A stretch of DNA of 64,000 bases from Lachnospiraceae bacterium MD329 (GTDB taxonomy: Bacteria > Bacillota > Clostridia > UBA1381). Positions 9,266-63,415 of the stretch are shown here, piece after piece. Each line of letters starts with the position of its first letter. Positions within the stretch are counted from its first letter, which is position 1. The DNA is taken from NCBI GenBank assembly GCA_010206265.1, contig VIQV01000029.1:186001-250000 (forward strand). Reading direction: 5' to 3'. The translations under genes and the position numbers were made by a program. The notes beneath the pieces were generated by a model that searched no databases, was not told the origin of the DNA, and saw only the letters and a list, made by a program, of their open reading frames with translations.

Positions 9266-9277
9266 GTATTTTTTTGT

Positions 9278-9306
9278 TTGCATTGGAGGATATATTATGA
9301 TATAAT
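9278..9306 (+). promoter_or_regulatory. Promoter of the structured leader RNA of the LRR gene
   Basis: TTGCAT (9278-9283), 17 bases, TATAAT (9301-9306). The RNA start would fall at about 9313, exactly at the base of the long hairpin. Confidence 0.75.
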
Positions 9307-9312
9307 AGTTTT

Positions 9313-9515
9313 TACCACAATGAATTCAAAATTTAATATTCCCGAATATTTGTGTGCATTTTTTTCAATAATGATAAAAATGCTACACTCTATTTTTGCA
9401 TACAGTATTCGTGGTGTTGGAAAATTTTGGATTCGTTGTGGTGACAAGTCCGAGTGGCGCATTTTTAGTGCGCTGCTCAGGCGGCGCACTTTTTTTAGTG
9501 TGCTTGTCACCACAA
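9313..9515 (+). ncRNA. Highly structured leader/small RNA upstream of the LRR gene
   Basis: The 5' end (9314-9334, ACCACAATGAATTCAAAATTT less one base) pairs with 9422-9442 over 21 positions, with only two G-U wobbles. An inner hairpin (GCATTTTT / AAAAATGC) sits in the loop. Next come AGTGCGC (9467-9473) / GCGCACT (9484-9490) and seven T residues, an intrinsic terminator. TTGTGGTGACAAG (9436-9448) can instead pair perfectly with CTTGTCACCACAA (9503-9515), enclosing the terminator. These exclusive pairings look like a switch. The 3' portion resembles the array RNA at 60112-60274 on the minus strand. Confidence 0.65.
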
Positions 9516-9549: not shown

Positions 9550-11457
9550 ATGAGAAACAACAGCAGGGGCGGATATTGTCCGCCGACAATGAAAAGACGG
9601 TTTATGTGTATGCTTGTGACAGTGGCGATGCTTCTGACGCTTATGCCTGTCACGATATGCGCGGAAACGAACGGTACTTATCACGACACTATGACATGGA
9701 CGCTTGACGACGACGGCGTTCTTACCGTAAACGGCACGGGAGTAATATCGTACTATTATAATGAGGACGACCCTCTGCCGTGGGCAGAAAGCAAAAGCTC
9801 AATTACGCAAGTTATACTGGGAGAGGGCATAACAGGTATTGAGGGCGATGAAACCTTTGGAAGTATGGAAAGTCTAAGAAGCGTTACGTTTCCCGATAGC
9901 CTTACATTTATAGGCAACGGGACGTTTATGCACTGTACCGCATTAACAAGCGTCACCATTCCGAAGAACGCAAGGCTTGGCAACGTTCCCTTTTGTGCGT
10001 GTGACGCTCTTACAGAAATAAATGTTGACGAGGAAAATCCTTATTATACGTCAATTGACGGAGTATTGTGCAACAAGGAAAAAACGGAGCTTATTCAATA
10101 TCCGTCGGGCAGAAGCGATGCGGCATATACATTCCCCGAAAGCATTACAAGCATCGGTGATGAAGCGTTTGAAATGAATAATAATCTGACAAGCATTGTA
10201 ATTCCTGACAGAATTAAATCAATCGGTCTTTGCGCGTTTGCACTCTGTGAGAATTTAGCGGATATAACTATCGGAAGCGGCGTTGAGGAAATAGGCTATA
10301 ATGCGTTCGGTTATACCGCATACGAAAGTGACGAAGCAAACTGGGACGGCGGCGTGCTGTATATAGGCGATTGTTTGATTTCAGTAAACAACGAAATATC
10401 AGGAGAATATGAGATTAAAAACGGCACAAGATTGATAAGCCACAGCGCGTTTGAGTATTGCAAGAGTTTGACGGGGGTTGCAATCCCCGACAGCGTGCAG
10501 GTGATATGCGACGATGCGTTTGCGGACAGCGGTCTGACCAATGCAACTATTCCAAAGGGCGTTACGAAAATGGGCGAGGGAGTGTTCTATGGCTGTGAGC
10601 TTACGGAAATAAATGTTGACGCGGAGAACACTGTATATATGTCGGAGAACGGCATTGTGCTGAGCCGCGACAAAACCGAGCTTGTCTGGTATCCGAAGAA
10701 CAAAGCCGATACGTCATACATAATTCCGGACGGTGTAAGGAAAATCGGCAGAAATACATTTAATAAGTGTACAAATCTAACTGATGTAACAATCCCCGAC
10801 AGTGTTACCGAAATAGGCGAGCGTGCTTTTTCTTCTTGCGGTATAACAAGCATTGTAATTCCCGACAGCGTTAAGAAAATAGGCAGTGGCGCATTTGGCA
10901 CATGTACCGCTATGACCTCCGCCGTTATAGGCGACGGCGTAGAGGAGATAGACAGCAGCGCATTTTGTTTTTGTTTAAATTTAGCGTCGGTTACAATCGG
11001 AAACAGAGTTAAGGAAGTCAAAAATACCGCGTTCTACTACTGTAACAGGCTGACAGACGTGTACTACAACGGAACGCAGGAGGACTGGGAGAAAATAATT
11101 ATCAACCGCCAAAACGACGAGCTTGTAAAAGCGACGAAGCATTATGAGCCGACAGTAACGCCCACACCAACAGCGACCCCAACCGCAACACCGACGCCCG
11201 AGCCAACAGACCGCGTAGAATTTGAACGTACAGGCGATACGGTATCGGCAAGGCTTATATTTGAAAAAACAACACCGCCTGACGAGGGCGATATACAGAT
11301 GATGGCAGCATATTTTGAAAACGGAACTTTAAAACGGCTTGTAATACCTGAAATTAACGGTATGACGGCTGATTTCAGCTATATGGATTATGATATATCG
11401 GTATATGTATGGGATAAAAATATGAAACCGCTTATGTCGGTTCAGCATTATAAATAA
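9550..11457 (+). CDS. Secreted BspA-type leucine-rich-repeat surface protein
   Basis: 635 residues. A basic N-terminus and hydrophobic stretch (about 14-36, ending ICAE) form a signal peptide; an internal Met14 is an alternative start. About a dozen LRR_5/BspA repeats follow (for example LTDVTIPDSVTEIGERAFSS). Then comes a Thr-Pro linker (about 536-556, repeated TPTAT) and a C-terminal beta-rich domain. These proteins sit at the cell surface and mediate adhesion or binding; the ligand is unknown. No SLH domain or sortase motif is seen, so anchoring is unclear. Translation starts 35 bases after the structured leader, which probably controls it. Confidence 0.88.
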   Translation: MRNNSRGGYCPPTMKRRFMCMLVTVAMLLTLMPVTICAETNGTYHDTMTWTLDDDGVLTVNGTGVISYYYNEDDPLPWAESKSSITQVILGEGITGIEGDETFGSMESLRSVTFPDSLTFIGNGTFMHCTALTSVTIPKNARLGNVPFCACDALTEINVDEENPYYTSIDGVLCNKEKTELIQYPSGRSDAAYTFPESITSIGDEAFEMNNNLTSIVIPDRIKSIGLCAFALCENLADITIGSGVEEIGYNAFGYTAYESDEANWDGGVLYIGDCLISVNNEISGEYEIKNGTRLISHSAFEYCKSLTGVAIPDSVQVICDDAFADSGLTNATIPKGVTKMGEGVFYGCELTEINVDAENTVYMSENGIVLSRDKTELVWYPKNKADTSYIIPDGVRKIGRNTFNKCTNLTDVTIPDSVTEIGERAFSSCGITSIVIPDSVKKIGSGAFGTCTAMTSAVIGDGVEEIDSSAFCFCLNLASVTIGNRVKEVKNTAFYYCNRLTDVYYNGTQEDWEKIIINRQNDELVKATKHYEPTVTPTPTATPTATPTPEPTDRVEFERTGDTVSARLIFEKTTPPDEGDIQMMAAYFENGTLKRLVIPEINGMTADFSYMDYDISVYVWDKNMKPLMSVQHYK

Positions 11458-32575: not shown

Positions 32576-32824
32576 TTAGCTATCCTCCCTGTATTAAATA
32601 CTATATATTTTGTATTATAACACGATAACCCTAAAAAAGCAAGTTTTCCCGATTAGTAAAGTAATGGTTATTTTTATTTCAAATACCTGTAAGTAAATAA
32701 ATCATAAAATGTCTTTTAACGTACCATAAAAAGTGCGCTGCTCCGTTAAAGCAACGCACATAAAACACTATATTCCACTTGTTACCACGCAAGCCCAAAT
32801 ACCTTTAGAAATAAAGTATGGAAT
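32576..32824. other. Intergenic region, 249 bases
   Basis: Holds the leader of the membrane-protein operon and the terminator of the DUF3795 gene (32727-32759). No ORF. The minus-strand stretch around 32733-32790 (GTGGTAACAAG, then GTGCGTTGCT) resembles the 3' part of the RNA unit at 9436-9490. Confidence 0.6.
32727..32759 (-). terminator. Intrinsic terminator of the DUF3795 gene
   Basis: GTGCGTTGCT / AGCAGCGCAC on the minus strand (32759-32750 with 32742-32733), followed by TTTTT, about 66 bases past the stop codon. Confidence 0.7.
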
Positions 32825-33199
32825 TTAGCATTTTCCGGTTTTAATAAATTCTATCAGCTTTTCTACATCATCAAAATCGTCATAATCGCCAGTAATTCCT
32901 TCTCGATGATATATGATTCCTCTCTTTTCGTTTTCCTCAAGACAGTCAAGAAGTTTCTCAATTCCATATCTCTTTATAAACAATGTAAAACCATATGGTT
33001 TGATTTTACTTAGTAATCCTCTTTTACAATCCATTTCACAAGCATAACAACCTAAATGTTCCTTTTCAATTGAGCATTTTCTGTTTTCACATTTGGTGTA
33101 GTCAGGACAATTATCTGAATAACATCCGTTGCATTTTACATTTTCTGAACATAAGCAACAAGCAAGTCCACACCTTGCAATTCCCAATTCTCTTTTCAT
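32825..33199 (-). CDS. DUF3795 cysteine-rich protein
   Basis: 124 residues with 12 cysteines, most in the first 60 residues: CGLACCLCSENVKCNGCYSD, CPDYTKCENRKC and GCYACEMDCKRG. The pattern is typical of DUF3795 and is likely to bind zinc or an Fe-S cluster; no function is established. The C-terminal half is helical. Ribosome site GGAGGGTG. Downstream of lysS but separated by a terminator. Confidence 0.88.
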   Translation of the reverse strand: MKRELGIARCGLACCLCSENVKCNGCYSDNCPDYTKCENRKCSIEKEHLGCYACEMDCKRGLLSKIKPYGFTLFIKRYGIEKLLDCLEENEKRGIIYHREGITGDYDDFDDVEKLIEFIKTGKC

Positions 33200-38470: not shown

Positions 38471-38638
38471 TTTACAAGTACAATTTATTATGTTATGATA
38501 CGTGATTAGATAGGTATTTTTGTTTTATGATAAAAACGCTTACTTCGTTTTTAATGCTTATCTAAATTAAGCTTTAATTATGTTTCGCGACATCGAAATA
38601 ATGCGTTTTTTATGCGTTGCTTGAGCAACGCATTTTTT
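38471..38638 (+). ncRNA. Array A, unit 1: promoter, hairpin RNA and terminator
   Basis: Promoter TTTACA (38471-38476), 17 bases, TATGAT (38494-38499). The RNA begins near 38506 with TTAGATA, which pairs with TATCTAA (38559-38565). An inner AAAAACG/CGTTTTT hairpin and a spacer follow. The end is ATGCGTTGC (38612-38620) / GCAACGCAT (38625-38633) and six T residues. No ORF. Confidence 0.6.
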
Positions 38639-38640
38639 AT

Positions 38641-38853
38641 TTGACAAAAAATAGAAAGCGTGTTATAATAATTGTGCATTACAGAAAAATATATTTACAC
38701 AGTGTTTATGTTTAGTAAAAAACATAGGCTTTGGTTTGCTATATTTATTTTAAACATAGTGTAGATATATACTGTAGAATTATATAGTCTGTAATGCAAC
38801 AAAAATTGAAGCCGTGTTGTTTTTTTATGCACGGTTTCAACCGTGCATTTTTT
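38641..38853 (+). ncRNA. Array A, unit 2: promoter, long hairpin RNA and switch-like terminator
   Basis: Promoter TTGACA (38641-38646), 17 bases, TATAAT (38664-38669). RNA from about 38674. TGCATTACAG (38675-38684) pairs with CTGTAATGCA (38789-38798), and inside it TATGTTTA (38707-38714) pairs with TAAACATA (38751-38758), giving a hairpin of about 124 bases. The terminator is ATGCACGGTT (38827-38836) / AACCGTGCAT (38839-38848) plus T run. TTGAAGCCGTG (38806-38816) can instead pair with CACGGTTTCAA (38830-38840), excluding the terminator. Same 3' module as array B unit 1. Confidence 0.7.
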
Positions 38854-38858
38854 ATTGC

Positions 38859-38907
38859 AAAGGAGGGCAGAGAACGTAAGTATGTCGGCTTACATTACAA
38901 TTGAATA
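38859..38907 (+). repeat. 49-bp perfect repeat, array A copy
   Basis: Identical to 60051-60099 in inverted orientation. It starts AAAGGAGGGCAGAGAACGTA a few bases after the terminator T run and contains a GTAAG/CTTAC hairpin. Confidence 0.9.
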
Positions 38908-38936
38908 TAGAAATTTTATTAAATTTGTGTAGCATT

Positions 38937-38963
38937 GAACCCCCGTTTATAAAACGGGGGTTC
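38937..38963 (+). repeat. C5/G5 hairpin closing array A
   Basis: GAACCCCCGTTT (38937-38948) / AAACGGGGGTTC (38952-38963), followed by TCTC. The same hairpin closes array B (59999-60024). There is no T run. TTCTCT at its end can also pair with AGAGAA at the start of the 49-bp repeat. Confidence 0.85.
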
Positions 38964-38995
38964 TCTCTTGCTAAAATATTTAATTGTAGTTTTTA

Positions 38996-57837: not shown

Positions 57838-58986
57838 ATGTGGTATCTTGAAACTGACATTCTGCTGAGGCTTTTAATGGCAACAGGCTGTATGCTGCTG
57901 ATTTCGGGACTTTCACGGCTGATTCTGAAAAAAGATATCGGCCCAAAGGTACTGATTTTAGCCAGTATAGCGGTAATTGCCTATGTATCGCCGCAGCTTG
58001 CACTGTTCAGCGTCGGCTATTCGCTTATAACATTTTTACTCGCGAGGATTTTGAAACTGCTGAAAAAGACACGTCGGGTCTTTTTTGTGTTATTCAGTAT
58101 TATCTGTACAATACCTTTCTTTTACGGAAGAATAAACGGCTTTTTCCCGCAGTTACCCGTAATAATCGTGTTTATAGGTATATCATATCATATGCTGAAA
58201 GCTATAGACGTAATGTATTTCGTATATTATGCGGATATGGAGATTCCTTTTCTGACATATATGAACTATATGCTGTTCTTCCCAACGTTTACATCAGGAC
58301 CGATTTTCCGTTACAGGGACTTCCAGAAAGTTTTTAACAAGCCCGTACCTCTTACAACAGACAGGTTTATAATGTATGTAAAGCGGTTTATAAAAGGAAT
58401 GTTCAAAAAAATGGTTGTTCTTTATTTTGTCAGCACATTTTTTACGTTTCTTCTGGGACTGGAAAAGCATTGGTATATCAGCCTTTTAATTGTTATTTTC
58501 AGCTATCTGTTTTTATATTTCGACCTGTCGGGTTACAGCGATATTGCTATTGCGACAGGCTCGGTAATGGGATATACCGTACCTGAAAACTTCCGTAAAC
58601 CGTGGGCGGCGGCGTCATTTACTCAGTTCTGGCGTAACTGGCACATTACCTTGTCCGACTGGGTCAGAGAACATATTTTTGTTGTGCTGAACGGTAAAAA
58701 ACTCGGAAGACTTGCCTCTGCCGGAATGGGTTTTTTGGTTATGTTTATAATGGAAATGTGGCACGGCTTTACACTGCCGTACATATTCGGCGGTGTTTAC
58801 AACGGTTTATGTCTGGGACTTGAAAATCTTTTCGGACTTACTACAGTTGACAAACGTAAAATGAAAAAACCCGTCTACATTATCCGCTGTATTATAGTAA
58901 ACGGTTTATTTGCATTAAATACACTGCTTATGACGGTTACTCCTACACAATTGATTGATGTATTAGGAGGATTTATAAAGCTATGA
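57838..58986 (+). CDS. dltB: MBOAT-family membrane acyltransferase, DltB-like
   Basis: 382 residues, about 10-11 membrane helices. MBOAT signature: FLYFDLSGYSDIAIATG, FRKPWAAASFTQFWRNWHIT with LSDWVREHIF, and the catalytic His in EMWHGF (about 308). Transfers the aminoacyl group from the carrier across the membrane to teichoic acid or its intermediates. Starts 18 bases after dltC; ends overlapping the next gene by four bases. Confidence 0.93.
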   Translation: MWYLETDILLRLLMATGCMLLISGLSRLILKKDIGPKVLILASIAVIAYVSPQLALFSVGYSLITFLLARILKLLKKTRRVFFVLFSIICTIPFFYGRINGFFPQLPVIIVFIGISYHMLKAIDVMYFVYYADMEIPFLTYMNYMLFFPTFTSGPIFRYRDFQKVFNKPVPLTTDRFIMYVKRFIKGMFKKMVVLYFVSTFFTFLLGLEKHWYISLLIVIFSYLFLYFDLSGYSDIAIATGSVMGYTVPENFRKPWAAASFTQFWRNWHITLSDWVREHIFVVLNGKKLGRLASAGMGFLVMFIMEMWHGFTLPYIFGGVYNGLCLGLENLFGLTTVDKRKMKKPVYIIRCIIVNGLFALNTLLMTVTPTQLIDVLGGFIKL

Positions 58987-59846
58987 AAAAGATTGCGGTA
59001 ATAATTGCGGTTGTGCTGATGATTGCGGTAAGTGACTTGGCGCTGACGTATAATAATTTTATAAAAGACAGTGATTATTTTATAAAAAACGACTTTGAAA
59101 TAACCCAGAACCACCACCCCGAAAAAATATGGGACAAGGTGTTTTTCGGTAACAGTGTCGTTATTTCCTCATACATAGAGGAACAAAGTCAATCGGAGTA
59201 TATAAATCTCGGCTTGGATTACGGCGTCGTTACAGACCTGTGGAAAATGATAGAAATGCGTCATATAAATATCGGTTCGGAACTTGTTATAGGTCTGAAT
59301 TATCTTACGCTGTATGACGAATTTGAAACAAATCCAACTTACATCTGGCACAAACAGCCGTATGTACCGTATGCATATTTTGAACGCGACAGATTTTATC
59401 CGTTAATAACGGACGGCTTTGACAAGCTGTTAAACGGTCAGAATCCTCTGCCGTTTAAATATCTGCCTCAGGAAAAGCACGTTTACCACGGCGCGCTGTC
59501 GGACAGTGCGCTTGACGATACTTTAAAACGCTACGAGGAGGAATTTTTCAACCAGCCAATTGAAAAGTTCCAAAATAACCTTTCAGCGCTTGAAAAAGTG
59601 ATTGAATACTGCAATAAAAACAATATACAGGTAAGAGCGGTATGGATGCCGTGGAATCCAAAGTATGAAAAACCTTCGCTGTCAAATGAAGTACGTGCGG
59701 CGGCGGAACAGATTTTTAACCGATACGGTGTTGAAATGCTGAATCTTGAGGACGAACTGCCCTCGGAATATTTTTACGACACGGGACATCTTAATTATGA
59801 TGTGGGTTCACCGAGATTTACGGAAATTCTGGACAAATGGTTATAA
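58983..59846 (+). CDS. SGNH-like membrane-anchored protein in the DltD position
   Basis: 287 residues. One N-terminal membrane helix (about 4-22), then an extracytoplasmic SGNH/GDSL-type domain. The nucleophile block is FFGNSVV (Ser58), followed by NLGLDYGVVTDLW, and the terminal catalytic pair is DTGHLN (Asp266, His269). It is shorter than classical DltD (about 390) and reads GNS rather than GSSE, so it is a functional analogue or distant homologue, probably the last acyl-transfer or editing step. Overlaps dltB by four bases. Confidence 0.8.
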   Translation: MKKIAVIIAVVLMIAVSDLALTYNNFIKDSDYFIKNDFEITQNHHPEKIWDKVFFGNSVVISSYIEEQSQSEYINLGLDYGVVTDLWKMIEMRHINIGSELVIGLNYLTLYDEFETNPTYIWHKQPYVPYAYFERDRFYPLITDGFDKLLNGQNPLPFKYLPQEKHVYHGALSDSALDDTLKRYEEEFFNQPIEKFQNNLSALEKVIEYCNKNNIQVRAVWMPWNPKYEKPSLSNEVRAAAEQIFNRYGVEMLNLEDELPSEYFYDTGHLNYDVGSPRFTEILDKWL

Positions 59847-59965: not shown

Positions 59966-59998
59966 TTAATTAAGCAGTTAACGGAGGGCAGAATGAGA

Positions 59999-60024
59999 GA
60001 ACCCCCGCTGTAAAACGGGGGTTC
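59999..60024 (-). repeat. C5/G5 hairpin closing array B
   Basis: GAACCCCCG (59999-60007) / CGGGGGTTC (60016-60024). Counterpart of 38937-38963 in the other array. GGAGGGCAGA occurs just outside it on the plus strand (59983-59992) and again, inverted, at the start of the 49-bp repeat, making a terminal inverted repeat. Confidence 0.85.
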
Positions 60025-60050
60025 AATGCAACAAAAATCAATATGTTCCT

Positions 60051-60099
60051 TATTCAATTGTAATGTAAGCCGACATACTTACGTTCTCTGCCCTCCTTT
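60051..60099 (-). repeat. 49-bp perfect repeat, array B copy
   Basis: Reverse complement of 38859-38907 without a mismatch. It starts three to six bases after the terminator T run of array B unit 2. Confidence 0.9.
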
Positions 60100-60105
60100 A
60101 ACAAT

Positions 60106-60297
60106 AAAAAAGCGTTGCCTAAGCAACGCATAAAAATGCGATACTTAGGTTGTCGCCAAACAGACCATTATCTTTGCATAAATACACCAAGATTAAGTAT
60201 CACATTTTTTACAAAAAAAATGATGTACTTTATGCAAATTAAGTATTAAAGTCTGTTTGGCATATATTATTATAACACATTTCCTGTTTTTTGTAAA
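60106..60297 (-). ncRNA. Array B, unit 2: promoter, long hairpin RNA and terminator
   Basis: Minus-strand promoter TTTACA (60297-60292), 17 bases, TATAAT (60274-60269). GCCAAACAGAC at the 5' end (60261-60251 read on the minus strand) pairs perfectly with GTCTGTTTGGC (60165-60155), enclosing about 85 bases. The terminator is GCGTTGC (60112-60118) / GCAACGC (60123-60129) plus T run. CCTAAG/CTTAGG with CGCAT/ATGCG can form a competing hairpin. No ORF. Confidence 0.7.
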
Positions 60298-60306
60298 GAT
60301 AAAAAA

Positions 60307-60500
60307 CAAAAAATGCGCGGTTGAAACCGCGCATAAAAAAACAACACGGCTTCAACTTTTGCGTAATATTTTCATCAAATAACTCAAGATTTTCAGTAAT
60401 ATTAATCAAAGCCTATGTTTTTTTCAACATAAACCGAAAACATCAAGTTATTAAAAATATTACGCAAGATTATTATACCATATTAACTCATATTTGTAAA
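60307..60500 (-). ncRNA. Array B, unit 1: promoter, long hairpin RNA and switch-like terminator
   Basis: Minus-strand promoter TTTACA (60500-60495), 17 bases, TATAAT (60477-60472). The RNA starts at about 60467: 14 bases (60467-60454) pair perfectly with 60372-60359. The terminator is ATGCGCGGTT / AACCGCGCAT (60313-60334) plus T run. GTTGAAGCCG (60356-60347) can instead pair with CGGTTTCAAC, breaking the terminator. Shares the CATAGGCTTTG loop and the 3' module with array A unit 2. Confidence 0.7.
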
Positions 60501-60520: not shown

Positions 60521-63415
60521 ATGAAAAAGCTGATACCTTTGTTTGTTCTTGCCGCAATGTGCATTTCAGGCTGCGTGGGAAACATTCAGGTTTCAAATCC
60601 CGATACGTTCAAATCTGCCGTAATTGCGTCAGATGACAGTATAACTGCAAAAAATGCCATCAACGGTCTTAAAGAATCTGTTGTTTCAACGCTTACCGCC
60701 GACAGATTAAACTCGGCGCAGAACTTGGAAGATTACGACGTAATCTACATTGATAAAAGCATTGCTCAGCTTGAAGGCTTTGACGCAAAAGCAGTGCAGG
60801 AGCGTGTTTCAAACGGCGCCTGCGTATTCCTTGACAATGAAGTATATGACCTCTTTGACCGTGACTTTATCGGCGCGGAGGATTTTGTACCTGTTGACGT
60901 ATGCCCCGTTGAAATGACATATCCCGATATTCAGACGGACGGCGTAAAGAAAATACAGGTATTACTGCGTGATTTTGTCAGAATGTACACGCGTTATTCA
61001 AATTATGATGTTCTTGCACAACAAAGCTACGGCGTGGGTGTTATTCCTTCAACCGCCGAATGTGTTGCGGAACAGAGCGGAACAGGAATTTACACCATTA
61101 ATCAATACGGCGACGGACTTGTTTTCTTCACCAGTCCGCTTTTGCCCAATGCTTTTTCTGTAAATAACCTATCCCCCCAAGACAACGGCGAATACCTGTC
61201 AGCCGCAACTGTCGGCGCAAATAAGCTTATCCGCGACTATTTTGCGGAAATAGCGTCGCTGAAAAAATACGGTTATGCAATAGAAACGGTATTCGGCAGT
61301 TTTGCGCGTCCTGCCGCCGCGTGGGAACTGCACTATGAGGATATAACTGGAATTGAAAACGGTTCGGCGGAAATATTTGAAGAAATGTGCAAACGCTACG
61401 GTCAGGTTCCGTCCTTTACACTGGCACGAAACCCGTATGTATGGTTTCGTCGTGCTGAAAGCGTTACTTATGCTTTAAACGATAACGGACAATTCGCAAT
61501 GGACCCATATGAAAACGCATATTCATCAGGCACGCACTTTGTTTCGGCAAAAAAATGGCTGTCACTTGACTATTACGACAATACAATAAGCTATTTCGAG
61601 CAAAACCGCGACTATATAAAACGCGCTTACCCCTGTCCTACCGACTTTAACGGTGACGGAAATATGGACTTAATCTGCGGCAGTGCAGACGGAAAACTGT
61701 ATTACTTTGAGGGCAGCGGTATGCAGGATAATTACGAGCTTGGTATCGCAACAATGTTTACCGATACGGACGGAAATCAAATCAGCGTCGGCGCTTACTC
61801 CTCTCCCGACATTGCCGATCTTGACAATGATGGTATAAACGAGATAATAACGGGAGATGAAAACGGTTCTATACACTGCTTTAAACCTGTCGGAGGTATG
61901 GTGCTTGAAGATTTGGGAATCATTCTTGAAACAGGAATGACCGACGCTATGCCTGCTCTCGGCGACCTAAACAACGACGGTATAACCGATATGGCAGTTG
62001 GCTCTCGTAATGGAGAAATGCGTATTTATTACGGTGAGGCTGTCAACTACGGAACGGCTTTTACTTCTTATGAAACTGTTGAAACAGGTCAGACTTGGTG
62101 CGCGCCGTGTATTGCGGACGTAAACGGCGACGGCATAAACGAGCTGTATTCAGGTACATTTGAAGGATATATTGCAGGCTATGAAAACGGTCAGTTCCTT
62201 GGTTATCTTGAAGGAAACGAATGTAATTATGAAGGCAATATTCATTTGAAATTCGGTTCAAACAGTGTACCGCGTTTTTATGACATTAACCGCGACGGTC
62301 AGCCTGACCTGATTGCAGGTTCGCTCGAATACGGTATGGCAGTACCGATTGACAGTAAATATTTCCCGTACCGCGACCGTTTGCAGGAACAATTAAATGG
62401 TTTCCGTGACCGCGGTATTTACGTCGGTGTACACGCTCTTTCACACGAGCACGCTGACCCTGCGCACGACGCGCGTGAGCTGGAATATCAGAAAAAAGCG
62501 TTTGAATCATACGGTCTTGATTTTGTCGGCAGCGGTGCAAATCAGCACACTTGGCGTACCAGTAAAGTCGGTTACGACACTCATTATGACAATATGACAG
62601 GCTACGACGGTACTTACCGCGCGCAAATGGACGCAGGACTTTACTGGAACAGCGGTTCGCAGACACCAAACAGTACCGCAGTACCCGAGGTAAGCTCGGA
62701 AAATTCAATACTTGTACCGTTCTATCTCAATAACGGTCAGTTAATGTTACAGCCGTGCAACACGCCGAACGGTTACGACGAATATTCAGACATCACGGCA
62801 AATTACGAACTGCCTCTGCTATTCTATAACCACTGTGATTATGTTTATCGTGAACAGGAAAACGAGGACAAAAAAATAAAAGAGGCGGACGCGCTTGTAA
62901 ATGCTTACGGTTATAACTTTGTACAGGAAAACCAGCTTGCAAAAATGACCGCCGCCGCGCTTAATACAATTGTGGACGCTAAATGGGACAACGACGCCCT
63001 CTATCTTCAGGCAAGAGCAAAATCCACAAAACTTCCGCTTTACGACAAGGACTATCAGAACTCTGTCGGAGTAAAAATAATTTTTGCAAACGGTGTTTCC
63101 GCCGACGAGTTTAACGTCAATGCAAGCGTTTCTTACAAAAAGGATAACTGCATTTATGCGTCGCTTGACAAAGGTGCGGTAATCTCAAAGAAAGGCGAAA
63201 ATACGGACTTTTCTCTGACGGCTGTAAATCTGCCTGCGGATATTTCCGGAACCAAGGACGGCGCAACCGTTAAGTTTCTCGACGGCGGTATGATGACCGC
63301 CACAGTAAACGGAATGGCAAAAACGCCCTCCGGCGGCTGGGAAGTAACCCAACAGAACGGTAAAACCATATTCAGGAAATACGGCAAAAAATCAACATTA
63401 AAAATTATAAAATAA
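60521..63415 (+). CDS. Large lipoprotein with FG-GAP/VCBS-type Ca-binding repeats
   Basis: 964 residues. Lipoprotein signal with lipobox CISGC (Cys17), so anchored to the outer membrane leaflet. N-terminal domain about 30-240; around 375-620 are at least five repeats with Asp-rich loops (DFNGDGNMDLICG, DLDNDGINEIITG, DLNNDGITDMAVG, DVNGDGINELYSG, DINRDGQPDLIAG), typical of beta-propeller FG-GAP/VCBS units. A following segment (GIYVGVHALSHEHADPAHDA) looks like part of a deacetylase-like barrel, but I cannot assign it firmly. A polysaccharide-binding or -processing role is plausible. Ribosome site AAGGAG. Confidence 0.8.
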   Translation: MKKLIPLFVLAAMCISGCVGNIQVSNPDTFKSAVIASDDSITAKNAINGLKESVVSTLTADRLNSAQNLEDYDVIYIDKSIAQLEGFDAKAVQERVSNGACVFLDNEVYDLFDRDFIGAEDFVPVDVCPVEMTYPDIQTDGVKKIQVLLRDFVRMYTRYSNYDVLAQQSYGVGVIPSTAECVAEQSGTGIYTINQYGDGLVFFTSPLLPNAFSVNNLSPQDNGEYLSAATVGANKLIRDYFAEIASLKKYGYAIETVFGSFARPAAAWELHYEDITGIENGSAEIFEEMCKRYGQVPSFTLARNPYVWFRRAESVTYALNDNGQFAMDPYENAYSSGTHFVSAKKWLSLDYYDNTISYFEQNRDYIKRAYPCPTDFNGDGNMDLICGSADGKLYYFEGSGMQDNYELGIATMFTDTDGNQISVGAYSSPDIADLDNDGINEIITGDENGSIHCFKPVGGMVLEDLGIILETGMTDAMPALGDLNNDGITDMAVGSRNGEMRIYYGEAVNYGTAFTSYETVETGQTWCAPCIADVNGDGINELYSGTFEGYIAGYENGQFLGYLEGNECNYEGNIHLKFGSNSVPRFYDINRDGQPDLIAGSLEYGMAVPIDSKYFPYRDRLQEQLNGFRDRGIYVGVHALSHEHADPAHDARELEYQKKAFESYGLDFVGSGANQHTWRTSKVGYDTHYDNMTGYDGTYRAQMDAGLYWNSGSQTPNSTAVPEVSSENSILVPFYLNNGQLMLQPCNTPNGYDEYSDITANYELPLLFYNHCDYVYREQENEDKKIKEADALVNAYGYNFVQENQLAKMTAAALNTIVDAKWDNDALYLQARAKSTKLPLYDKDYQNSVGVKIIFANGVSADEFNVNASVSYKKDNCIYASLDKGAVISKKGENTDFSLTAVNLPADISGTKDGATVKFLDGGMMTATVNGMAKTPSGGWEVTQQNGKTIFRKYGKKSTLKIIK

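Follow-up and report, generated by a model that had tools for sequence, protein, structure and literature searches.

Analysis of a 64,000-nucleotide stretch of DNA from Lachnospiraceae bacterium MD329 (hereafter, the window) suggested that the two units of array B, which are read on the minus strand and stand in tandem, are dispersed, orphan members of a new clostridial class of leader RNAs that would act as transcription attenuators, a reading to which we assign, from the sequence, a probability of about 0.75. For the family at large, attenuation is proposed with the same confidence because its units harbor three mutually exclusive helices and lie before genes. A terminator is found between promoter and gene in the family, although array B itself has no gene behind its terminators, and the swap test of one of the helices (S1:S2, see below) revealed a covarying antiterminator whose formation would exclude that of the terminator.

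Array B proved genuine and consists of two units, B1 and B2, followed by a tail of ~123 bp. On the minus strand, B1 extends from its -35 box at position 60500 to the T-run of its terminator at 60308, B2 from 60297 to 60106, and the tail from 60105 to 59983. In both units, a rod-like hairpin is preceded by a promoter of the sigma-70 type and followed by an intrinsic terminator (Table 1). The promoters of both units are made of TTTACA and TATAAT separated by a 17-nt spacer, with a TG upstream of the -10 box, and the closing stem of the rod, P1, starts almost at the predicted transcript start. Upon folding of the minus strand, B1 (147 nt) and B2 (150 nt) yielded z-scores of -7.35 and -6.52, respectively, relative to dinucleotide shuffles, none of the 200 shuffles being as stable in either case; the folded stretches cover most, not all, of each unit.

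Table 1 Features of array B and of related units in the window
Feature	Position	Strand	Basis or remark
B1 promoter, -35 region (TTTACA)	60487..60500	-	Sequence
B1 -10 region (TATAAT)	60468..60479	-	Sequence
B1 closing stem P1, 5′ arm	60452..60467	-	13 P1 pairs counted across units
B1 end of apical A-run and strand L (AAACATAGGCTTTGA...)	60401..60420	-	Pairs with S1
B1 closing stem P1, 3′ arm	60359..60374	-	Pairing with 60452-60467
B1 strand S1, 5′ arm of antiterminator	60345..60356	-	Alternative partner: L or S2
B1 intrinsic terminator, S2:S3 hairpin and T6	60308..60334	-	Sequence
B2 promoter (-35 TTTACA from 60297, -10 TATAAT in 60275-60261)	60261..60297	-	97% identity to C6_2 promoter
B2 closing stem P1, 5′ arm	60250..60262	-	Pairing with 60154-60166
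B2 A-run and strand L (AAAAAATGTGATACTTAATC)	60191..60210	-	Own S1 best of 103 possible partners
B2 closing stem P1, 3′ arm	60154..60166	-	Pairing with 60250-60262
B2 strand S1	60132..60149	-	Pairs with L
B2 intrinsic terminator	60106..60131	-	Sequence
Tail element: conserved GGAGGGCAGAGAACGTAAG..., hairpin GAACCCCC/GGGGGTTC, closing stem GGAGGGCAGA/TCTGCCCTCC	59983..60105	-	6 copies in own genome
Array A unit 1 (A1), same family	38471..38638	+	5′ arm of P1 apparently missing
Array A unit 2 (A2), same family	38641..38853	+	Followed by tail from 38862 without far arm
Single unit, same family	9277..9494	+	Before ORF 9550-11457, a 635-aa BspA-type leucine-rich-repeat protein

An earlier note on this DNA had described array B as sharing modules with a second array of the window, array A, while differing from it in its stems. 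In agreement with that description, the CATAGGCTTTG loop of A2 is kept in B1, and the 62-nt 3′ module of B1, said to be nearly unchanged, shares 89% identity with its counterpart in A2. The closing stem had been called different: the stem body of B1 shares 62% identity with that of A2, which is no better than chance given that shuffles yielded 57 ± 2% with a maximum of 63%. Its arms do pair, over 16 positions one of which is a G-U, and those of B2 form 13 pairs that include the 11-bp core singled out in the note. The order of the 3′ modules is indeed swapped, a GCTT type being followed by a GTTTC type in array A and the GTTTC type coming before the GCTT type in array B, and the proposed '3′ switch module' can now be accounted for by the terminator, the antiterminator and a third competing strand. 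Module shuffling also gained support. The promoter of B2 is 97% identical to that of C6_2, the second unit of an array on contig C6, and its 3′ module is closer to that of the C67 unit (82% identity) than to that of C6_2 (63%), making the units mosaics. Array B lies within the range 59999..60500 originally ascribed to it, but the far arm of the tail ends at 59983, just outside. At the site of array A, the neighboring genes differ in the relatives examined.

To follow the units through other genomes, two models were built, R1 from 13 units of the genome under study with their promoters, and R2 from 71 units of other genomes without promoter. The genome-wide search which the earlier note had suggested was run with R1 and returned 29 family matches, including a damaged copy, C45. 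Among relatives, R1 matched 55 of 61 genomes, own genome counted. R2 recovered all four units of the two arrays (E-values of 8.6e-10 for B1, 2.4e-14 for B2, 7.7e-10 for A1 and 1.7e-6 for A2) and gave a fifth match in the window at 9309-9494. In an even sample of the class, with seven candidates scored per genome, 100 of 391 genomes matched, own genome included; these carriers span 21 families by label count, some with weak best matches only. In a sample of 398 genomes from the phylum, some of them of the same class, our own was the only one to match (0/397 for the others). Because few candidates per genome were scored and the filters were strict, the counts from these large searches are lower bounds. 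A scan with a strict sequence pattern found 47 stretches of metagenome-assembled genomes labelled Clostridia, Oscillospiraceae, Ruminococcus, Monoglobus or Avimonoglobus, with one labelled Bacteroides; it is on the strength of these labels that we take the class to be Clostridia. An extended -10 element was present at the 5′ end of 23 of the 27 class loci found with R2, the model devoid of promoter, compared to 2.3% of random positions, and of 18 of the 21 class loci that were new relative to R1.

The family looks new, having no match in Rfam 15 and no description in the portions of the literature available to us, including those of PMC2965389 and PMC8040213; it may still correspond to some candidate listed without a name in one of the large supplements of the field. 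A cmscan of the window and of 40 foreign loci against Rfam 15 yielded no match over the unit at the gathering threshold; matches elsewhere in the 40 loci were to tRNA, tmRNA, SRP, RNase P and Gut-1 RNAs only. Rerunning three stretches in E-value mode brought nothing near the gathering score.

A regulatory function is suggested by the competition of three strands for pairing. S2:S3 is the terminator, S1:S2 an antiterminator and L:S1 a third helix, where L denotes the A-run and the following loop strand inside the rod, and S1 lies between the closing stem and the terminator. As S1 pairs with either L or S2, the resulting helices are mutually exclusive, which is the layout of a transcription attenuator. 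All three covary across copies. Between the two units of array B, the loop strand (GGCTTTGA in B1, GATACTTA in B2) and S1 (TTGAAGCC in B1, TAAGTATC in B2) changed together.

The natural covariation of a structured RNA, claimed from array B in the earlier note, was recovered in units of the own genome and of foreign genomes alike, with pairing concentrated in the right register. Of all cells in the 13 own-genome units, 97.0% pair compared to at most 49.8% when the partners are slid, and the corresponding values in the 71 foreign units are 94.4% and at most 57.6%, with a covariation of 0.376 compared to at most 0.111; the helices for both counts were picked on the same alignments, which favors the unslid register. 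The alignment of 71 was obtained from 82 units of relatives by removing 11 that were long, short, truncated or damaged, an exclusion that flatters the counts; by helix, pairing in it amounts to 97.3% for P1, 87.3% for P3, 93.5% for L:S1 and 99.3% for the terminator. A scan of all column pairs of this alignment in which L:S1 had not been named ranked P1 first (97%) and L:S1 second (93%), the latter showing as many pair types as P3. The 5′ strand of P3 can also pair with part of L, an alternative that covaries as well (90.3% paired). P1 and the terminator belong to the search models, and their presence in matches is thus not independent evidence, while L:S1 and S1:S2 were in none of the covariance models used for searching.

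Free of the same-alignment weakness of the slide counts is a swap test, in which each strand was paired with its cognate partner or with that of another unit (103 of 111 units). Cognate pairing was the more stable for both helices: the mean energies of cognate and swapped partners were -17.98 and -15.22 kcal/mol for L:S1 (z -10.2) and -14.34 and -11.07 kcal/mol for S1:S2 (z -15.1), and none of 5000 permutations reached the real mean energy in either case. Restricting the test to the 26 units of the own genome gave z-scores of -7.9 for L:S1 and -9.3 for S1:S2, and the L:S1 result was unchanged when the anchor for L was chosen without reference to S1. The preference of single units varies and can be weak: among 103 S1 strands, the own one pairs best with the L of B2, but 10 of 102 foreign S1 strands outpair the own one for the L of B1, as do 44 of 102 for that of A2. 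L:S1 would form a pseudoknot with P1. The terminator hairpin and T-run are found in 14 own units, and only one of 106 units examined lacks them. It is close to certain that the units are members of one structured RNA family. Conservation within the units is confined to the apex and to an AAUA motif at the inner end of P1 (present in 99 of 126 units, where shuffled windows gave 36.7 on average and 50 at most), and is modest outside the helices for a small-molecule aptamer. The two places are candidate sensing sites.

In the mechanism that we propose, the transcript of a unit would consist of a long P1, an A-rich apical hairpin containing L, the linker S1 and the S2:S3 terminator, and the rod would fold first during transcription. 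If L were free, it would capture S1 as an anti-antiterminator, allowing the terminator to form and transcription to stop; if L were occupied, S1 would pair with S2 and RNA polymerase would read through. L might be hidden, for instance, by re-pairing with the 5′ strand of P3, a covarying alternative, and this presumed step might be controlled by a putative ligand or factor acting on the rod through the AAUA internal loop and the U-rich/A-rich apex. Since no ORF lies behind array B, this pair is probably an inserted cassette that at present controls no gene, or else it gives rise to small terminated RNAs. More tentatively, and with clearly less than even odds in our estimation, one may think of a new riboswitch-like class in Clostridia, up to tens of copies of which per genome would gate accessory surface, lipoprotein and small-protein genes, the self-contained cassette of promoter, switch and terminator spreading such that new genes join one signal by insertion of the RNA.

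The position of the units relative to genes was determined in relatives and in the own genome. Of the 82 units of relatives, 52 precede an ORF of at least 35 aa with a ribosome-site-like sequence, making the family usually a gene leader; the others are followed by no recognized ORF (21), by a tiny ORF (4) or by a contig edge (5). When 27 class loci were added to the 111 units, the resulting 138 units had 83 downstream ORFs in 43 clusters, 54 of which ORFs start 10-29 nt past the terminator; six of the 27 loci repeat earlier units, and without these repeats and two spurious calls, the count is 50 of 75. Among 14 arrays picked from other genomes, nine have units spaced by 41-74 nt, and in eight of these nine an ORF of at least 38 aa starts 15-53 nt behind the last terminator; none starts so close in the five loosely spaced arrays (149-303 nt). 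The 29 units of the own genome are followed by a convincing ORF in seven cases (nine by machine call, from which the spurious L023 and L024 were removed), a tiny ORF in five, the tail repeat in six and none of these in 11. Pfam matches among 20 downstream proteins included those to BspA-type leucine-rich repeats, a copper amine oxidase N-terminal domain, an ABC transporter, a SIR2-like domain, CHAP/ricin lectin, HTH_3 and DUF6809; nine of the 20 proteins were unmatched at E 0.01 and some others matched only below the curated cut-off. No clear enrichment of tRNA genes near the units was found in a tally that was incomplete, some tRNAs found with Rfam having been missed.

Array B itself is flanked by genes at 58983-59846 and 60521-63415. 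Out of 15 further genomes of the genus, seven have the two as neighbors, separated by 34-263 bp compared to 677 bp here; in the other eight, one homologue is missing or the two are not side by side. Five relatives keep between the flanking genes a small ORF whose stop codon almost touches the next ribosome site, and it is at this junction, antisense to the operon, that array B is found here. No gene lies behind it and no target is evident, and a search of the seven syntenic loci with R2 returned no match. Array B is thus probably an orphan, inserted copy. It is best read, from this comparison of loci, as a lineage-specific insertion or transposed duplicate, and appears to have landed within an unrelated operon.

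Such an origin raises the question of whether array B is only decaying mobile DNA, akin to the palindromic repeats of MITEs or BIMEs, whose pairing would be left from its origin and serve no function at this site. Its absence from the syntenic site of seven genus relatives is compatible with this explanation, as are the mosaic modules, the restriction of the tail repeat to the own genome among 37 searched, the C45 copy, which has neither promoter nor 5′ half, and A1, which appears from an alignment gap to have lost the 5′ arm of P1, leaving array A partly decayed. The earlier note had taken copies without pairing conservation as the mark of decaying mobile DNA; pairing is in fact kept, and what holds of that picture is the look of a lineage-specific insertion and the damage to A1 and C45. 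Compensatory changes concentrated in the right register, the joint maintenance of three competing helices, the retention of promoters and the start of most downstream ORFs of the family 10-29 nt behind the terminator all argue against decay. By eye, no clear target-site duplication was seen at array B. We regard mere decay as quite improbable. Slightly less so, though still unlikely, is that each unit is a small RNA in its own right, a terminated rod that would act in trans or soak up, as a sponge, the factor that normally controls the leaders. The promoter and terminator of each unit would suit this role, and nothing recognized as an ORF, tail or tiny ORF stands close behind 11 of the 29 own units and 21 of the 82 from relatives, which also weighs against attenuation. 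Six of these 11 own units, however, precede not nothing but another unit of an array, most units of relatives stand directly before an ORF, and an antiterminator would be purposeless in an RNA that always terminates. As array B has no evident target gene, dead insertion and source of small RNA are both live alternatives for this particular pair.

The leaders could also be targets of LoaP, a NusG paralogue that binds structured leader hairpins in Firmicutes and is an antiterminator. Its known binding of such leaders speaks for it, but LoaP was found above the curated cut-off in 62 of the 391 class genomes, none of them among the 100 RNA-positive ones, compared to an overlap of ~16 expected by chance (an expectation that ignores kinship), and no match in the own genome reaches that cut-off. 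Given this lack of co-occurrence, we consider LoaP most improbable. A phage origin was considered too and rejected, the strict 27-base pattern being absent from viral contigs (exact matches only) and two recurrent downstream small proteins having no match in phage records.

Returning to attenuation, the family would work like an attenuating riboswitch or a protein-responsive leader and is a candidate rather than an established member of the riboswitches. It shares with attenuating riboswitches, including tandem ones, the leader position, the mutually exclusive antiterminator and terminator and the tandem copies, and differs from them in having no known ligand, no recognizable aptamer and no Rfam match over the unit. 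Unlike in tandem riboswitches, moreover, nearly every tandem unit has its own promoter-like -10 element (29 of 31 units in the 14 foreign arrays have an extended one upstream). The LhrC RNAs of Listeria are tandem multicopy small RNAs, each copy of which has a promoter and a terminator. The units described here resemble them in both respects, but have a built-in antiterminator and frequently an ORF behind the terminator. In Enterobacteria and bacilli, Naville and Gautheret (2010, PMC2965389) described mobile and BIME-based attenuators, which are terminators belonging to insertion sequences or to BIMEs; the likeness lies in related attenuators before unrelated genes and in dispersed repeats, and the difference in the promoter, conserved rod and third competing strand that each unit of the present family brings along. 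With about a quarter of the sampled class genomes positive, 29 matches in the own genome and none in Rfam 15, the family would be a large uncharacterized group of cis-regulatory RNAs in gut bacteria. With its switch strands defined, it lends itself to direct testing, and array B points to the arrival of such regulators at new sites.

The tail repeat occurs in six copies in the own genome, each directly behind a unit and two without far arm, and in none of 36 relatives. Its first ~49 bp are near-identical in the six copies and the rest is diverged; the copies in the window lie at 59983-60105 and 38862-38967, and the five copies other than that of array B are 86-91% identical overall. Folding gave z-scores of -5.12 on the minus strand and -5.42 on the opposite strand. 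Where the far end is kept, its CCTCC is complementary to the GGAGG with which the tail starts, and MSAYITIE could be encoded by the array B copy. A weak R2 match on the minus strand of the window (32728-32834, E 4.5e-5) is far shorter than a unit and possibly a remnant.

Small proteins of two kinds, ~37-59 and 77-78 aa in length, recur behind the RNA in several genomes (L064, L067, L068, L165 and L166, and L049, L091, L121, L132, L150 and L168). Two of each kind were scanned without yielding a PHROG or NCBIfam match, and the L091 protein, the only one of these kinds scanned with Pfam, had no match. Of eight downstream proteins compared to PHROGs, only that of L167 matched (best to a phage antitoxin family, E 2.1e-7). 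L167, L169 and L170 are two-unit arrays from three genomes of the genus that precede the same 81-82 aa protein, which we take to resemble AbrB-type proteins. On contig C28 of the own genome, a unit (L034) stands before a protein with a SIR2-like domain, a domain often seen in defense systems. Finally, tiny ORFs with a ribosome-site-like sequence follow L021, L023, L024, L028 and L030 (C56, C1, C1, C18 and C67), with the products MRLKIP, MRLKIP, MQLKIP, MKRLKIP and MKKLKIT, respectively. The leucine of the five peptides is encoded by five different codons, which suggests that this peptide of 6-7 residues is under selection.
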